Shown here: positions 1 through 9,165 of the stretch, in pieces
Layout: every line of letters starts with the position of its first letter
How positions within the stretch are numbered: position 1 is the stretch's first letter
Assembly (NCBI GenBank): GCA_016873095.1
Contig: VGYC01000010.1
Coordinates: 1 to 64,000, forward strand
Source of the DNA: Planctomycetota bacterium
GTDB lineage: Bacteria; Planctomycetota; Planctomycetia; Gemmatales; Gemmataceae
Direction of reading: 5' to 3'
Length of the DNA: 64,000 nucleotides
The notes under the pieces: generated by a model
Told to the model about the DNA's origin: nothing
The model's input: only the letters and a program-made list of their open reading frames with translations
Databases searched by the model: none
Position numbers and translations under genes: made by a program

Positions 1-168
1 GGGGAACTCGACAATCCCTGGCATGACCGGACCCTCCGTGGTCGTCGTGCGCCATGTGAAATTACCAGGAATTTGAACGAAATTGCCCATTTTGACAAGG
101 CCAGCTGCAGCTTTGCAAAACCTTAGTGAGAACTTAGAAAACGCGAAACTTGCGAACTGGAAACGGCA
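1..168. other. Intergenic end of window, no gene seen
   Basis: This stretch lies downstream of the minus-strand ettA gene and runs to the window edge. It is less GC-rich than its surroundings. I see no reading frame with coding character, no tRNA-like fold, and no hairpin plus T-run that would serve as a terminator for ettA. Confidence 0.4.
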
Positions 169-1842
<1,674 letters not shown>

Positions 1843-2435: not shown

Positions 2436-4583
2436 TCACTTGCCGGGGAAAGCGCTGCCGCCGCCACTCGTCTGGTCGCGGACAGCGCGGACGCGATTGC
2501 GCCAGCGCCAGTAGTGCATGGAACGAAAGCGGCCAATCTCGGTGGTTGGATCGCTATCGACGCGGGAATTGCGGACAATCAGGTTGCCTTCCGGTGTCAG
2601 CACGAGCATCTCGACGGCGGCGTCCTCCTTGATGTTCGACTTGCCGATCCGGTAATCATGCTTGCCTCCAGAGAAATCGACGAGGACAGGTGCCGGGTCT
2701 CCGAGAATGAAGTCCACCGGGATGCCGGGATGCTTGATCTTGCTCTTGCCCTCGCTGTAGAAGCCCAGCTCGAAGCGGCCCTTCTTGGCATCCCATTCGG
2801 GCACTTCGACGCGAATCTTTGTCCGGCCGATGAAATCGCCGCGGCGAATGGACAGCCGTTCGGCAACGGCCCAGTCGCCAACCGGCCGCTCGCCGGCCTT
2901 CTCGATCCAGCGATGCAGCTGCACAACGGTCTTGTCGGAGTCCACCTTGTCCTTGTCCACGCCGGTTCCGCCCTTGGCTGGCGTGGCATCCGTCTTTTCC
3001 GGCAGCGCCAGCTGATCGACGGCGAAGAAGTTTGTCTCGCCCGGGACAGTGACCCACGGAGTTGACACCCAGTCGGAGTACAGCTCGGCGGCCTTGCCGA
3101 CATCCAGGTAGGCGACGTCCTCGGTGCGGCCGAAGTTGGGGCTAGCGACGCGCACCTGCACCCAGTAGCGATAGGTCTTGCCCACCTTGGCATCGACGTC
3201 GATGAACCGGGCCAGCAACCGGGTGATTTCTTCTTCTCCCTTGGACTCGCCGTCCTTGCCTTTCTTTTTCTGCATCAGCATGTCGTTGAGGTAATTCGGG
3301 CCCTTCTTGTCTGTCACATCTTCCTTGGCAGTCTTGATCGGAGCGCCGTACGGGTCAAAGACGTTGTAGTTGCCGTTCAGGCGCGTCTGCAGGTCGGCGG
3401 GCAGTTCCTGGATCTTTCTGGGCAGGAATGTTCCGGTAATCTCCTTGCCCCCCTTCGGGCCGCCTTCTTTTGGGTTCAGCTTCTTGCCGAGGCCGAATCC
3501 GCCCTCCTTTTTTGGATCGGCCGGCTGAGCCTCCGGATCGTCGGCGGGAGGAACAGGCAGACCGGTCAAGCGCGGCGGCGGATAGCTGGCCTCGCCCTTT
3601 TGCACGGCCGCGAGCGCCGGCACCGGCGTCACCATGTTCGGGCCAAGGTAAGCGGACAGCTGCTTGGGGTTCTCATCGTCGATGCGCATGCGGCGGAACA
3701 GGCTGTCCAGCGCCTCGGAGCGCGCCATGATCTTCTCTTCTTTTTCGTCATACTGATACAGCGGCTCGGGCTTGGTTTCCTTGCCGTCCGAGAGAAGTTG
3801 CTGTTTCCAGATGTTCAGGCCGAGAAAACGGGGCGCCTCGCCCTTTTCCAGCATCTGCTTGACCGTCGGATAGCGCAATGCCTCGCGATAGAACTCGAGC
3901 TGTTCCTTGATCGGAAAGGTCATGCTGATCACCACCATGCGCTTGGGTTCCAGGAGCATGGACGGCGTGATCTTGTCGCCCGACTTGATCGCCATGAAGG
4001 TCATTCGTGACAGATCGGCGTCCAGAACGATGGCCGGAGCCGGGAAGTAATCGATCTGGACTTCGCGGATCGTGCCGTCGTCCTTGGTGCCCATCGTGAG
4101 GATGGCGGGATTGACGCGTTCGTTGGGGATGTCGGTTCTGGCGTTGAACAGTGGACCCCAGAGAGCGAACTGTGGATTCTTGACGATGACATAGTCAGAG
4201 TCGCGCGGCGCCGGGCGACTGGCCGCAATCCGGGCGCCGAAGGCGAGGAACTGCGCCCAGCCGGTGCGCGGACCGAGAAATGCGACAGCGCCGGCCACCA
4301 TGGCACGCGGATCCGGATGCTTCTTGGCCTTGGGAATGTCCTGGTCCCCGGGGCTGCTGCTATCGATGCGGCCGTTCATTTCCGCGACCTTGCTCTTGAT
4401 GGCGGCATCCCAGGTGACGCCGCCTGCGTTGGCGGGAGGCCTCGTCGATGGCGCCATGGGCCCGAAAATGCCCGCAAAGAGTATGAGCACTGTGATGACG
4501 GCCACGGCGATCAGCGCAAACCGCTCGCCCTTCTCGAACATCAACTCCTTGATCTTGCTGAAATCCAAGCTTTTCTTGGCCAT
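2436..4583 (-). CDS. Large membrane-anchored protein of the pilM-type operon, function unknown
   Basis: A protein of 715 residues that I cannot assign to a named family. It has a short charged cytoplasmic N-terminus (MAKKSLDFSKIKELMF), one hydrophobic segment at about residues 22-43 (ALIAVAVITVLILFAGIFG), and then a long hydrophilic part rich in Pro, Lys and Asp that would lie in the periplasm. Lysine- and glycine-rich linkers near residues 345-385 separate folded parts. The C-terminal half has FIDVDAKVGKTYRYWVQVRV, which resembles an Ig/FnIII-like beta strand region. An AGAGGATAA ribosome binding site precedes the ATG. It follows the 671-residue membrane protein by 55 bp. By position and topology it could be a PilO/PilP-like alignment-complex subunit, but no sequence motif proves this. 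Confidence 0.7.
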   Translation of the reverse strand: MAKKSLDFSKIKELMFEKGERFALIAVAVITVLILFAGIFGPMAPSTRPPANAGGVTWDAAIKSKVAEMNGRIDSSSPGDQDIPKAKKHPDPRAMVAGAVAFLGPRTGWAQFLAFGARIAASRPAPRDSDYVIVKNPQFALWGPLFNARTDIPNERVNPAILTMGTKDDGTIREVQIDYFPAPAIVLDADLSRMTFMAIKSGDKITPSMLLEPKRMVVISMTFPIKEQLEFYREALRYPTVKQMLEKGEAPRFLGLNIWKQQLLSDGKETKPEPLYQYDEKEEKIMARSEALDSLFRRMRIDDENPKQLSAYLGPNMVTPVPALAAVQKGEASYPPPRLTGLPVPPADDPEAQPADPKKEGGFGLGKKLNPKEGGPKGGKEITGTFLPRKIQELPADLQTRLNGNYNVFDPYGAPIKTAKEDVTDKKGPNYLNDMLMQKKKGKDGESKGEEEITRLLARFIDVDAKVGKTYRYWVQVRVASPNFGRTEDVAYLDVGKAAELYSDWVSTPWVTVPGETNFFAVDQLALPEKTDATPAKGGTGVDKDKVDSDKTVVQLHRWIEKAGERPVGDWAVAERLSIRRGDFIGRTKIRVEVPEWDAKKGRFELGFYSEGKSKIKHPGIPVDFILGDPAPVLVDFSGGKHDYRIGKSNIKEDAAVEMLVLTPEGNLIVRNSRVDSDPTTEIGRFRSMHYWRWRNRVRAVRDQTSGGGSAFPGK

Positions 4584-6654: not shown

Positions 6655-6691
6655 GAAACCACCTCAACCATGAATATGCTCTGATATGCTC

Positions 6692-9055
6692 CTACGGACG
6701 CGACTGCGTCTTGGCGTCCTCCAGCGTCGGCTCTTGCCAGATGAACAGGATGGCAAACTCGGTTCGCGGCTGGCGGGCGCCGGCGGCGGCCGGCCGTGCC
6801 TTGCCGGAATTCGGGTTGTTGGCCATGAGGCTGCCATCCTTGGCGCCGCTCCCGCCGCCAATGACCGCGGACGCACGCTCGCCGATGGGCTTCCAGCTGG
6901 AGCGACTGGCGCCGGCCCCCTTGCCGCCGCCCTTGCCGCCGCCTCCGCCGCCTCCCCCACCTCCGCCTTTCATGTCAGGCATGCCCTGGCCGCCCGGTGG
7001 GCCCTTCGATTCCTTGCCGCCCCCGCCGGAGCTCAGCGCCGCCAGCGTGCTGGTATTGATCAGCTCAAACTGGCCCGGATCAGGATTCTTGACGATCTGC
7101 TCGCGTGCCCACAGGTAGCTCATGCGATCCTTGACCTTTTCCTTCATGTCCTTGGACAGCACGTTGCCCACGCCCTTGGGATTGAGCAGGTTCTCCAGGA
7201 ATGTGTTGATGACGAAGCGCTTGTTCTCCTTGTGATGCGTGTAGCCGCGAACCTCCACTACCCAGCCTTTCTTGGGCAGGTCCTTCTTGGCCTTGATGCG
7301 CTCGAAGTCGTTGGGATCCATACCGGTCAATCCTTCCAGGCCACCGGAAATAATCCTCTGGCGCACCGCGTCGAAATAAGGCGACAGATCATCGAAGAAG
7401 CGATGCGTGATGCCCTCGATATTGATCTGGATGAGGTAGGGCTTGATGAGCTTCTCATCGACGTCGGCGCCGGACTTCGGGTCGCCCGCCCTGGCATAGC
7501 GTTTTTTGAGGATTTCCCGGTGCGCCGCGCCAGCCTTGTCGGTCACGAACTCCTTGTAGGCAAGCACACCGAAGCTCGTGGGCGCCTTCCTGGCAACCTT
7601 ATCGCCGTTGGGCATGGGCAAGGCCATGTTGATGTAGCGGTAGAGCAGGTCCCAGTTGTAGCGTTCCTGCACGCCGGAGCCGATCTTGCGGATGGCCAGC
7701 ACGCTCTCGTCGTAGTCGCCCTTGGCGGCGTTGAAGCGGGCCTCGAAGTCCGCCTTGCGAGCCAGCACGTCCTTGGCAGCCTTGGTGGCTGCCTCATTTT
7801 CCGGCTTCTTGGGATCCACGGCGCGGAAGTCAATGTTGCGGGCGAATGCCAGGCCCGCGACGGCCAGCAACAGCGAGGCGGCCGCCGCCACCGCCCATGG
7901 CTTCTTGGCCCGCACCATGCGCTCCACGCGAATCTCGTACGGCAACAGGTTCGTCTGCAAGCGCGTCAGCTTCAATCCTTGCAGGGCCAGCCCATAGGCC
8001 ACGCCAAAGCTCAGGACGTTCTCGGTGAACTGCGGCGCCTGCGAAACCTCTTCCCCGGTCATCCGCTCGAACGACGTCAGCTTGCGAACCTCCAGTTGCA
8101 GCTTCTCTTGCAAGTACTTTTGCAAGCCCGGCAAGCGGAACGCGTTGCCCAGTCCCACCATGTACTGGATTTGCGCGTCGCGGTGCGTGTTGGTGAAATA
8201 GCCCAGCGAGCGCTGCACCTCTCCCATGAAGTCATTGAGCACCGTCTTCAAGGCAGCCAGGATCTTCTTGAGATCCGGCGACTTGACGGCATTGCGCTTG
8301 AGATGCTCGGCCTTGGCGAAGGTGAGCTTGAGATCCTTGGTCAGAGCACGGGTGAAGTGATTGCCGCCCAGCGGGATGGGCCGCTGCCAGATGATCTTCT
8401 CGCCGTCGCAGATGACCAGGTTCGAGTTGTCGGTGCCGATCTCCAGCGCGACCACGCAGGCCTTCTTGCCGCTGTCCCCTTCGCCCTCGGCGGGGGGCGC
8501 ATTGTCCTTCTTGAGCAGGTCGTAGGCGACGTAGTTACACAGGGCCAGAGGCGCCATCTGTACCAGATGGACCTCCACGTTCACGTCCTTGAAGTGCTGC
8601 AAATACCGGCTGACCATGTCGCGCTTGATGGCGAACAGACCGATTTCCGTTTCCAGCGCGAACCCGTCGGTCACCATGCCGGCGCCGATCTTCTGGAAGT
8701 CCCAGACGACCTCCTCCAGCGGGAAGGGAATCTGCTGCTTGGCCTCGAAGCGGACGATGTCGCCAATCTTCTTCTCCTCGACGGGAGGCAGCTTGACGAA
8801 ACGAGCCAGGCCGCTCTGCCCCGGCACGCTGATGGCAACCATGTCGCCGTGCAGCTTGTTTCGTGACAGGAATTGCTCCAGTGCCTCGCGCGTGAGCTGA
8901 TCCGGGTCGGCGTCCGGCTGACTGAGAATCTTGGGATGCTCGATGTAGTCGTAGGCGGTCGAGGCCACCTGGCCATCGACCACCTCCAGGCGAATGGCCT
9001 TCAAGGCACATTGCCCCAGGTCAATGCCCCAGACTCCCATGTTCTTCTGCGCCAT
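6692..9055 (-). CDS. pilM: Type IV pilus assembly protein PilM, with a PilN-like domain fused at the C-terminus
   Basis: PilM is an actin-like ATPase of the inner-membrane alignment complex of type IV pili or type II secretion; it binds the short cytoplasmic N-terminus of PilN. Residues 1-360 are PilM: GVWGIDLGQCALKAIRL (phosphate 1), the PILF-type FEAKQQIPFPLEEVVWDF, LEIGTDNSNLVI (phosphate 2) and VGLGNAFRLPG (adenosine). At residues 369-372 comes NLLP, the conserved start of PilN, then a basic stretch and a transmembrane helix at 386-406, then about 380 extracytoplasmic residues. Near the C-terminus a run of 11 glycines precedes a basic linker. The protein is 787 residues; ordinary PilM is about 350. 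I chose the ATG at 9055 because GAGGAG lies 12 bases upstream and GVWGIDLG follows. It heads the operon. Confidence 0.85.
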   Translation of the reverse strand: MAQKNMGVWGIDLGQCALKAIRLEVVDGQVASTAYDYIEHPKILSQPDADPDQLTREALEQFLSRNKLHGDMVAISVPGQSGLARFVKLPPVEEKKIGDIVRFEAKQQIPFPLEEVVWDFQKIGAGMVTDGFALETEIGLFAIKRDMVSRYLQHFKDVNVEVHLVQMAPLALCNYVAYDLLKKDNAPPAEGEGDSGKKACVVALEIGTDNSNLVICDGEKIIWQRPIPLGGNHFTRALTKDLKLTFAKAEHLKRNAVKSPDLKKILAALKTVLNDFMGEVQRSLGYFTNTHRDAQIQYMVGLGNAFRLPGLQKYLQEKLQLEVRKLTSFERMTGEEVSQAPQFTENVLSFGVAYGLALQGLKLTRLQTNLLPYEIRVERMVRAKKPWAVAAAASLLLAVAGLAFARNIDFRAVDPKKPENEAATKAAKDVLARKADFEARFNAAKGDYDESVLAIRKIGSGVQERYNWDLLYRYINMALPMPNGDKVARKAPTSFGVLAYKEFVTDKAGAAHREILKKRYARAGDPKSGADVDEKLIKPYLIQINIEGITHRFFDDLSPYFDAVRQRIISGGLEGLTGMDPNDFERIKAKKDLPKKGWVVEVRGYTHHKENKRFVINTFLENLLNPKGVGNVLSKDMKEKVKDRMSYLWAREQIVKNPDPGQFELINTSTLAALSSGGGGKESKGPPGGQGMPDMKGGGGGGGGGGGKGGGKGAGASRSSWKPIGERASAVIGGGSGAKDGSLMANNPNSGKARPAAAGARQPRTEFAILFIWQEPTLEDAKTQSRP

Positions 9056-9165
9056 GGTCTTGCTATCTCCTCGGAAATGACAATCGCGCAATCGTCCGGT
9101 CGATCTGCCCAAGACAGGTTCACGTGCTGGCGGCTGTGCCTGCCGCCGTGCCTTCCTATTTTATG

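Follow-up and report, generated by a model that had tools for sequence, protein, structure and literature searches.

A 64,000-nucleotide stretch of contig VGYC01000010.1 (assembly GCA_016873095.1), from a planctomycete of the family Gemmataceae, was analyzed as the window of this study. It carries a gene whose product begins as PilM and extends well beyond it. This raises the question of whether PilM and PilN are joined here in one chain, and of what the two very large proteins encoded next to it contribute. The three genes lie on the same strand, separated by intergenic gaps of 37 and 55 bp. According to Pfam, they are flanked by a divergent TPR gene upstream and an acetyltransferase gene downstream, neither of which looks related to the set. 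The fused gene runs on the minus strand from an ATG at 9055 to a stop at 6692, and use of an alternative in-frame TTG at 9112 would lengthen the product to 806 amino acids. A plus-strand open frame of 726 amino acids antisense to it (6686-8866) was rejected as a gene, being a typical shadow frame of high-GC DNA.

Table 1. Coordinates in the window of the fused gene, its parts and its two neighbors
Feature	Coordinates	Strand	Evidence
Fused PilM-PilN gene, 787 aa	6692..9055	minus	ORF; Pfam PilM_2, TIGR01175, PilN profile match
PilM domain, residues 1-360, actin/FtsA-like, cytoplasmic	7976..9055	minus	PF11104; PDB PilM chains 3jc8, 2ych, 5eou, 5eox
NLLP, residues 369-372, PilN N-terminal motif, 7 residues past the PilM domain	7940..7951	minus	aligned to the 5eou PilN peptide
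Transmembrane helix, approximately residues 386-406, after a basic stretch	7838..7900	minus	hydropathy; conserved in homologue alignment
Periplasmic part: coiled region, W..P segment, then beta-alpha-beta and, across a Gly-rich stretch, last strand RTEFAILFIW; putative PilN ferredoxin-like half	6695..7837	minus	alignment conservation
PilO-like protein, 671 aa	4639..6654	minus	AlphaFold2 model; best VIA match PilO 2rjz_A
Third protein, 715 aa, N-terminal membrane helix, periplasmic beta-rich domains, PilP/GspC position	2436..4583	minus	model; gene order in relatives

A reading made from the DNA letters without database searches (hereafter the sequence-only reading) had assigned residues 1-360 to PilM, and this was borne out by family searches. 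PilM_2 (PF11104) matched residues 10-359 (E 4.8e-34; 118.2 bits against a cut-off of 27), and TIGR01175 pilM matched residues 8-360 with 152.3 bits, above its cut-off of 133. Sequence matches in the PDB included the solved PilM chains 3jc8 (E 1.7e-22), 2ych, 5eou and 5eox, and the GIDLG..ALKA region of the domain was conserved across the aligned homologues.

The same reading had placed NLLP at residues 369-372 and behind it a basic stretch and a helix at 386-406, and hydropathy, motif and alignment agree on this layout. The most hydrophobic 19-residue stretch of the protein begins at residue 387. Of 30 fused proteins, 26 carry a [NDSTR][LVIMF][LVIMF]P motif after the PilM domain, at a distance of exactly 7 residues in 24 of these 26; the remaining four comprise NLSP, KLIP, ELIP and one case with a misplaced computed domain end. 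The alignment to 5eou continues through NLLP to residue 373. Since 5eou is an engineered PilM-PilN chimera (a chain of 372 residues) in which PilM is followed by the N-terminal peptide of PilN, the natural fused protein has the layout that crystallographers built. The two differ in that 5eou was made for crystallography and lacks the remainder of PilN. With regard to stoichiometry, it demonstrates only that a covalent M-N link can be made.

To what extent the region behind the motif resembles PilN was evaluated by profile comparison, using reference sets made up of recognizable PilN proteins only. With hhalign, residues 365-787 matched canonical planctomycete PilN plus E. coli HofN at 96.2% (E 2.2e-9, 109 columns), and a separate comparison with another PilN set gave 92.3%. 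The match spans NLLP, the helix and the coiled region and ends at the W..P segment beyond the helix. A likeness to PilN from residue 365 onward, whose absence the sequence-only reading had named as a refutation, was recovered, and it covers the N-terminal half of PilN. Column shuffles of this comparison scored 0.3% or less in 30 of 30 cases. It should be noted that shuffling destroys membrane helices, so profiles of other single-pass proteins are the fairer controls; these reached 29.8% for the 671 family, 20.2% for compact O proteins and 1.2% for the 715 family. Compared alone, the C-terminal part of the fused protein gave 0.2% with the periplasmic half of PilN, which is not significant, and PF05137 (PilN) did not match the fused protein up to E 1. 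The homologue alignment contains a conserved C-terminal pattern, 'GWVVE.RGYTYH..FV..TLL.NL..ISHV.LY .. RTEF.I.F.W', which by eye appears to match the succession of the final strands and helix of PilN, interrupted by an inserted Gly-rich stretch. If so, the ferredoxin-like periplasmic half of PilN would also be present in the fused protein.

The distribution of this architecture was assessed in a survey of 147 genomes of the phylum, which recovered PF11104 in 146, PF05137 in 49 and PF04350 (PilO) in 79. The fused protein was present in 58 of 59 related genomes, its own included, and the exception (G149) is 79% complete. PF05137 was found in 7 of these 59, namely in 1 of 44 from the same family and order and in 6 of 15 from the rest of the class. 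The sole match within the family and order (G157) had an E value of 2.3e-4 in a 421-amino-acid frame. The sequence-only reading had asked whether planctomycete genomes lack separate pilN and pilO genes; by PF05137, 43 of 44 genomes in this family and order are without pilN. In a tree of PilM domains, 30 fused and 30 short PilM proteins were divided by well-supported branches (99/99). It comprised 63 of 66 rows after removal of E. coli GspL and HofM, which had no PilM-domain match, and of L185, whose match was too short. Such a separation makes a single origin of the fused clade possible. The fused design is phylum-wide in Planctomycetota, neither unique nor local, and several genomes (e.g., G001, G010 and G034) carry both a fused and a canonical short PilM.

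Eleven relatives (G171, G155, G154, G182, G185, G168, G148, G158, G149, G160 and G181) encode a further weak PilM-like protein in frames of approximately 450 to 630 amino acids, which covers profile positions 1-211 and is perhaps GspL-like. No such protein was seen in the genome under study.

The three-gene order is also kept. A search with the single fused protein as the query found no related loci, and the homologue alignment was used instead. Among the 94 loci examined, some of them from genomes counted twice and many cut by contig ends, all 69 that hold the three genes keep the order MN-O-P on one strand and within 500 bp. In four of four fetched loci from the same class (L238-L241), P is followed on its strand by a gene for a secretin of 1,420 to 1,545 amino acids (1,435 in L239), split in L241 into ORFs of 1,293 and 260 amino acids. 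These secretins are homologous to a 1,702-amino-acid secretin of the genome under study, which is located on another contig (C277:1022-6127, L075), not adjacent to the three genes, and matches Pfam Secretin along with weak STN and TPR matches. All 59 related genomes gave a match to it, which was weak in G154 and G180, and the homologues mostly have open frames of 1,400 to 1,970 amino acids. Twenty deeper-branching loci were fetched; the large downstream protein was scanned in ten of them and was a secretin in all ten. The gene orders in relatives therefore read M-N-O-(P)-Q, the first two genes being joined. Median sizes of the MN, O and P proteins were 855, 667 and 759 amino acids in 15 Gemmatales loci versus 702, 388 and 570 elsewhere in the phylum (n = 20, 17 and 13). 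The complex had been suggested to be lineage specific, which applies to the size of its parts only, the fused type itself being phylum-wide.

Both neighbors had been described as PilO-like in topology, and a likeness to PilO is supported by a model for the 671-amino-acid protein alone. Its AlphaFold2 model (pTM 0.74, mean pLDDT 79) shows a single membrane-length helix at the N terminus, a coiled coil, an insert of approximately 400 residues with an Ig-like domain and Gly-rich repeats, and a final beta-alpha-beta-beta unit, with the putative PilO core completed at the C terminus. P. aeruginosa PilO (2rjz_A) was at the top of 994 chains aligned by VIA (Z 7.2, rmsd 4.9, 125 of 135 residues), and the PilO core 5uvr ranked seventh (Z 6.3, 98 of 98 residues); Z values below 8 can arise by chance, and rows within 1 of Z count as tied. 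Because two PilO entries were found, each covered over nearly the whole chain, and because the alignment to 2rjz_A takes up a discontinuous range of the model (68..665), PilO with a large insertion is the best reading of the modeled fold. An Ig-like sandwich was indicated for the insert by the VIA match list. With Foldseek, nothing matched at E 1e-3, and PilO was absent among the best 50 listed; VIA places its top rows, Ptr ToxA and SadB, on the Ig-like insert. In deeper planctomycete lineages the O protein is only 283 to 537 amino acids long, as expected if the extra bulk of the 671-amino-acid protein is an insertion.

PF04350 had no match on the 671-amino-acid protein up to E 1. Comparison of the 671 family with a canonical PilO set gave 72.7%, which is weak evidence since the set was contaminated with PilN proteins. 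Pfam and NCBIfam revealed no clear family for the compact O and P orthologues, although one of the former (L221) had a weak T2SSM match (E 0.016). Profile searches of PDB sequences with alignments A2 and A3 yielded chance matches or none.

The 715-amino-acid protein showed no sign of PilO. Its model (pTM 0.71) likewise has a single N-terminal helix of membrane length. No PDB entry was matched by Foldseek at E 1e-3, and VIA listed FN3-like domains at best (Z 6.3), with PilP/GspC not among the chains listed, which does not speak against such a fold. No Pfam family, PF04351 (PilP) included, matched this protein; its 47 relatives had no PilP among their matches and no convincing family. It occupies the PilP slot, and its role rests on gene position. 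The O and P proteins of this locus are three to four times the usual length of PilO and PilP. Four deep lineages (L214, L216, L220 and L222) have no third gene between O and the secretin, so a P-like protein is not universal; there the machine apparently does without it or keeps the gene elsewhere.

The rest of the genome was inspected as well. A separate pilN elsewhere, which the sequence-only reading had named as a refutation, did not turn up, as PF05137 had no match up to E 10. PF11104 matched once, PF04350 had no match at E 1e-3, and PF04351 matched only at E 0.55. With the genome 95.5% complete and in 548 contigs, the absence of separate M, N and O genes is strong but not final. The type IV pilus parts PilB, PilT, PilC, N-methyl pilins and secretin are all encoded in the genome. 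Contig C29 carries PilB, PilT, a second PilB/GspE, PilC and two N_methyl pilins. The only secretin besides the 1,702-amino-acid protein is encoded on contig C24 (L074:4075-12763), beside a CpaF-type ATPase in a Tad/Flp-like cluster, these names being our own reading of the matches. Given the single PF11104 match and the placement of the C24 secretin beside a Tad-like ATPase, the fused set is the only alignment complex found for the PilB/PilT/PilC machine. A second ATPase with putative GspF and pilin-like genes was observed on contig C160 (L073:8749-13902), and no GspL-like gene was noticed nearby.

Taken together, the three genes are very likely pilMN-pilO-pilP of a divergent pilMNOPQ operon, encoding the inner-membrane alignment complex of a type IV pilus machine. 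The set resembles the canonical type IVa PilM-N-O-P-Q in gene order, NLLP motif, PilM family and the PilO-like model. It differs in that M and N are fused, the secretin has 1,702 amino acids with TPR traces, and the PilP family is unrecognized. In known systems, the cytoplasmic PilM ring contacts the assembly ATPase. Here, the fusion would put this ring on the same chain as the PilN anchor and its periplasmic arm. The NLLP peptide most likely docks in the PilM groove, either that of its own chain or that of the adjacent ring subunit, which would fix M and N at 1:1. The periplasmic arm would pair with the PilO-like 671-amino-acid protein, and the 715-amino-acid protein in the PilP slot would bridge to the 1,702-amino-acid secretin in the outer membrane, with ATPases, platform and pilins supplied from other loci to drive what would be a retractable pilus.

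The sequence-only reading had assumed that PilM and PilN are separate in other bacteria. This is contradicted by GspL/PulL of type II secretion, which passages of PMC10191384 and PMC4471445 present as a PilM-PilN fusion architecture, and by the phylum-wide fused clade. It is also at odds with L180 (592 amino acids) and L196 (590 amino acids), which combine PilM and a Pfam-detectable PilN in one chain. The latter two sit on long branches apart from the fused clade and are possible independent fusions. The fusion itself is thus a variant of a known architecture, and GspL/PulL, with PilM-like and PilN-like parts in one chain and neighbors in M and C roles, raises an alternative: the fused, 671- and 715-amino-acid proteins could be GspL, GspM and GspC of a type II secretion or related platform, whose job would be protein secretion and not pilus retraction. 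We regard this as unlikely. The T2SSM match of the compact O orthologue L221 and the second ATPase/pseudopilin-like cluster on C160 are in its favor, and in genomes that also hold a canonical short PilM (such as G001, G010 and G034) the fused protein could have another job. However, the PilM domain is of the full type IV pilus type and scores above the pilM subfamily cut-off, PilT-type ATPases are present, and the GspL families PF05134 and TIGR01709 had no match on the fused protein up to E 1. GspL family matches were seen in two relatives and were weak (E 0.0076 and 0.045).

Residues 373-787 might instead be an unrelated membrane anchor with an adhesin-like tail that happens to bear an NLLP-like peptide, as the missing PF05137 match, the restriction of the profile match to the N-terminal half and the long Gly-rich stretch could suggest. 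We consider this very unlikely, since the PilN match includes the conserved W..P segment past the membrane helix, the other proteins of this operon that combine a membrane helix with a coil score far lower against PilN, and L180 and L196 show Pfam PilN at the same place, albeit outside the fused clade. That the fusion is a pseudogene, a frameshift, an antisense artifact or an assembly error is hardly credible: homologues recur throughout the related genomes, nearly all as long open frames without an internal stop, 91 sequences align, and the fused proteins form one clade. The locus holds a real, conserved PilM-PilN fusion in the ordinary pilMNOPQ order, with parts of remarkable size.

Amuc_1100 of the gut microbe Akkermansia has been studied as a host-signaling protein. 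A connection to this organism emerged from NCBIfam, in which the best match of the fused protein was Amuc_1101_fam (NF045709; residues 43-478, E 5.5e-55), at 187.3 bits and thus far below the equivalog cut-off of 650. The likeness extends past PilM and is strongest in L220 (up to E 5e-76). The secretins of the operon match Amuc_1098_fam (NF042912) with E values from 6e-15 in the genome under study to 3e-35 in L217, also far below the equivalog cut-off. Amuc_1100_fam (NF038287) was the commonest match of the 671 family, although weak (4 of 53 members, best E 0.0089). By these matches, the planctomycete operon is kin to Akkermansia Amuc_1098-1101, at scores far below the equivalog cut-offs; sizes and order in the Akkermansia cluster (Amuc_1098-1102, MUL2) were taken from papers and family lengths only. 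Passages of a 2026 paper (PMC13174399) assign amuc_1099-1102 to the MUL2 locus, identifying 1101 as a PilM protein and calling 1099 and 1100 uncharacterized. Elsewhere, Amuc_1098 is named PilQ (passages of PMC10688800) and Amuc_1100 is labeled 'PilO' (passages of one paper, PMC11573778).

In the full-text literature, as distinct from subscription papers, we found no published account of planctomycete pilus proteins, and 'Planctomycet' is absent from the main text of a superfamily survey (PMC6668835). Planctomycete pili-like fibers bind dextran, according to passages of PMC5394234 that name no genes. We tentatively hypothesized, as a somewhat doubtful extension, that a single ancient MN-O-P-Q machine, distinct from canonical type IVa pili, is common to Planctomycetota and Akkermansia relatives and drives fibers for the capture or import of large glycans, as with the dextran-binding fibers of planctomycetes and the mucin locus MUL2 of Akkermansia. 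Amuc_1100 would then be its PilO, and the periplasmic parts in Gemmatales would have been lengthened for an unusually wide periplasm.

The interest of the locus lies in the purpose of the machine and in the reason for its very large periplasmic parts. As Pfam misses PilN, PilO and PilP here, surveys would score these genomes as incomplete. If the pilMN-pilO-pilP assignment is right, it supplies the list of components that planctomycete pili have lacked. The planctomycete giants and the two Akkermansia proteins called uncharacterized in passages of PMC13174399 would also gain roles by gene order. The natural fusion lends itself to a simple test of whether PilM and PilN must separate and rejoin during pilus extension and retraction, and with the size trend in Gemmatales it becomes possible to test whether the length of the complex is linked to the width of the periplasm. 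C-terminal extensions were also observed within the short PilM clade, in four proteins of 548 to 569 amino acids; they consist of extra hydrophobic segments in L016 and L024 and of long Pro/Ser-rich tails in L025 and L031.
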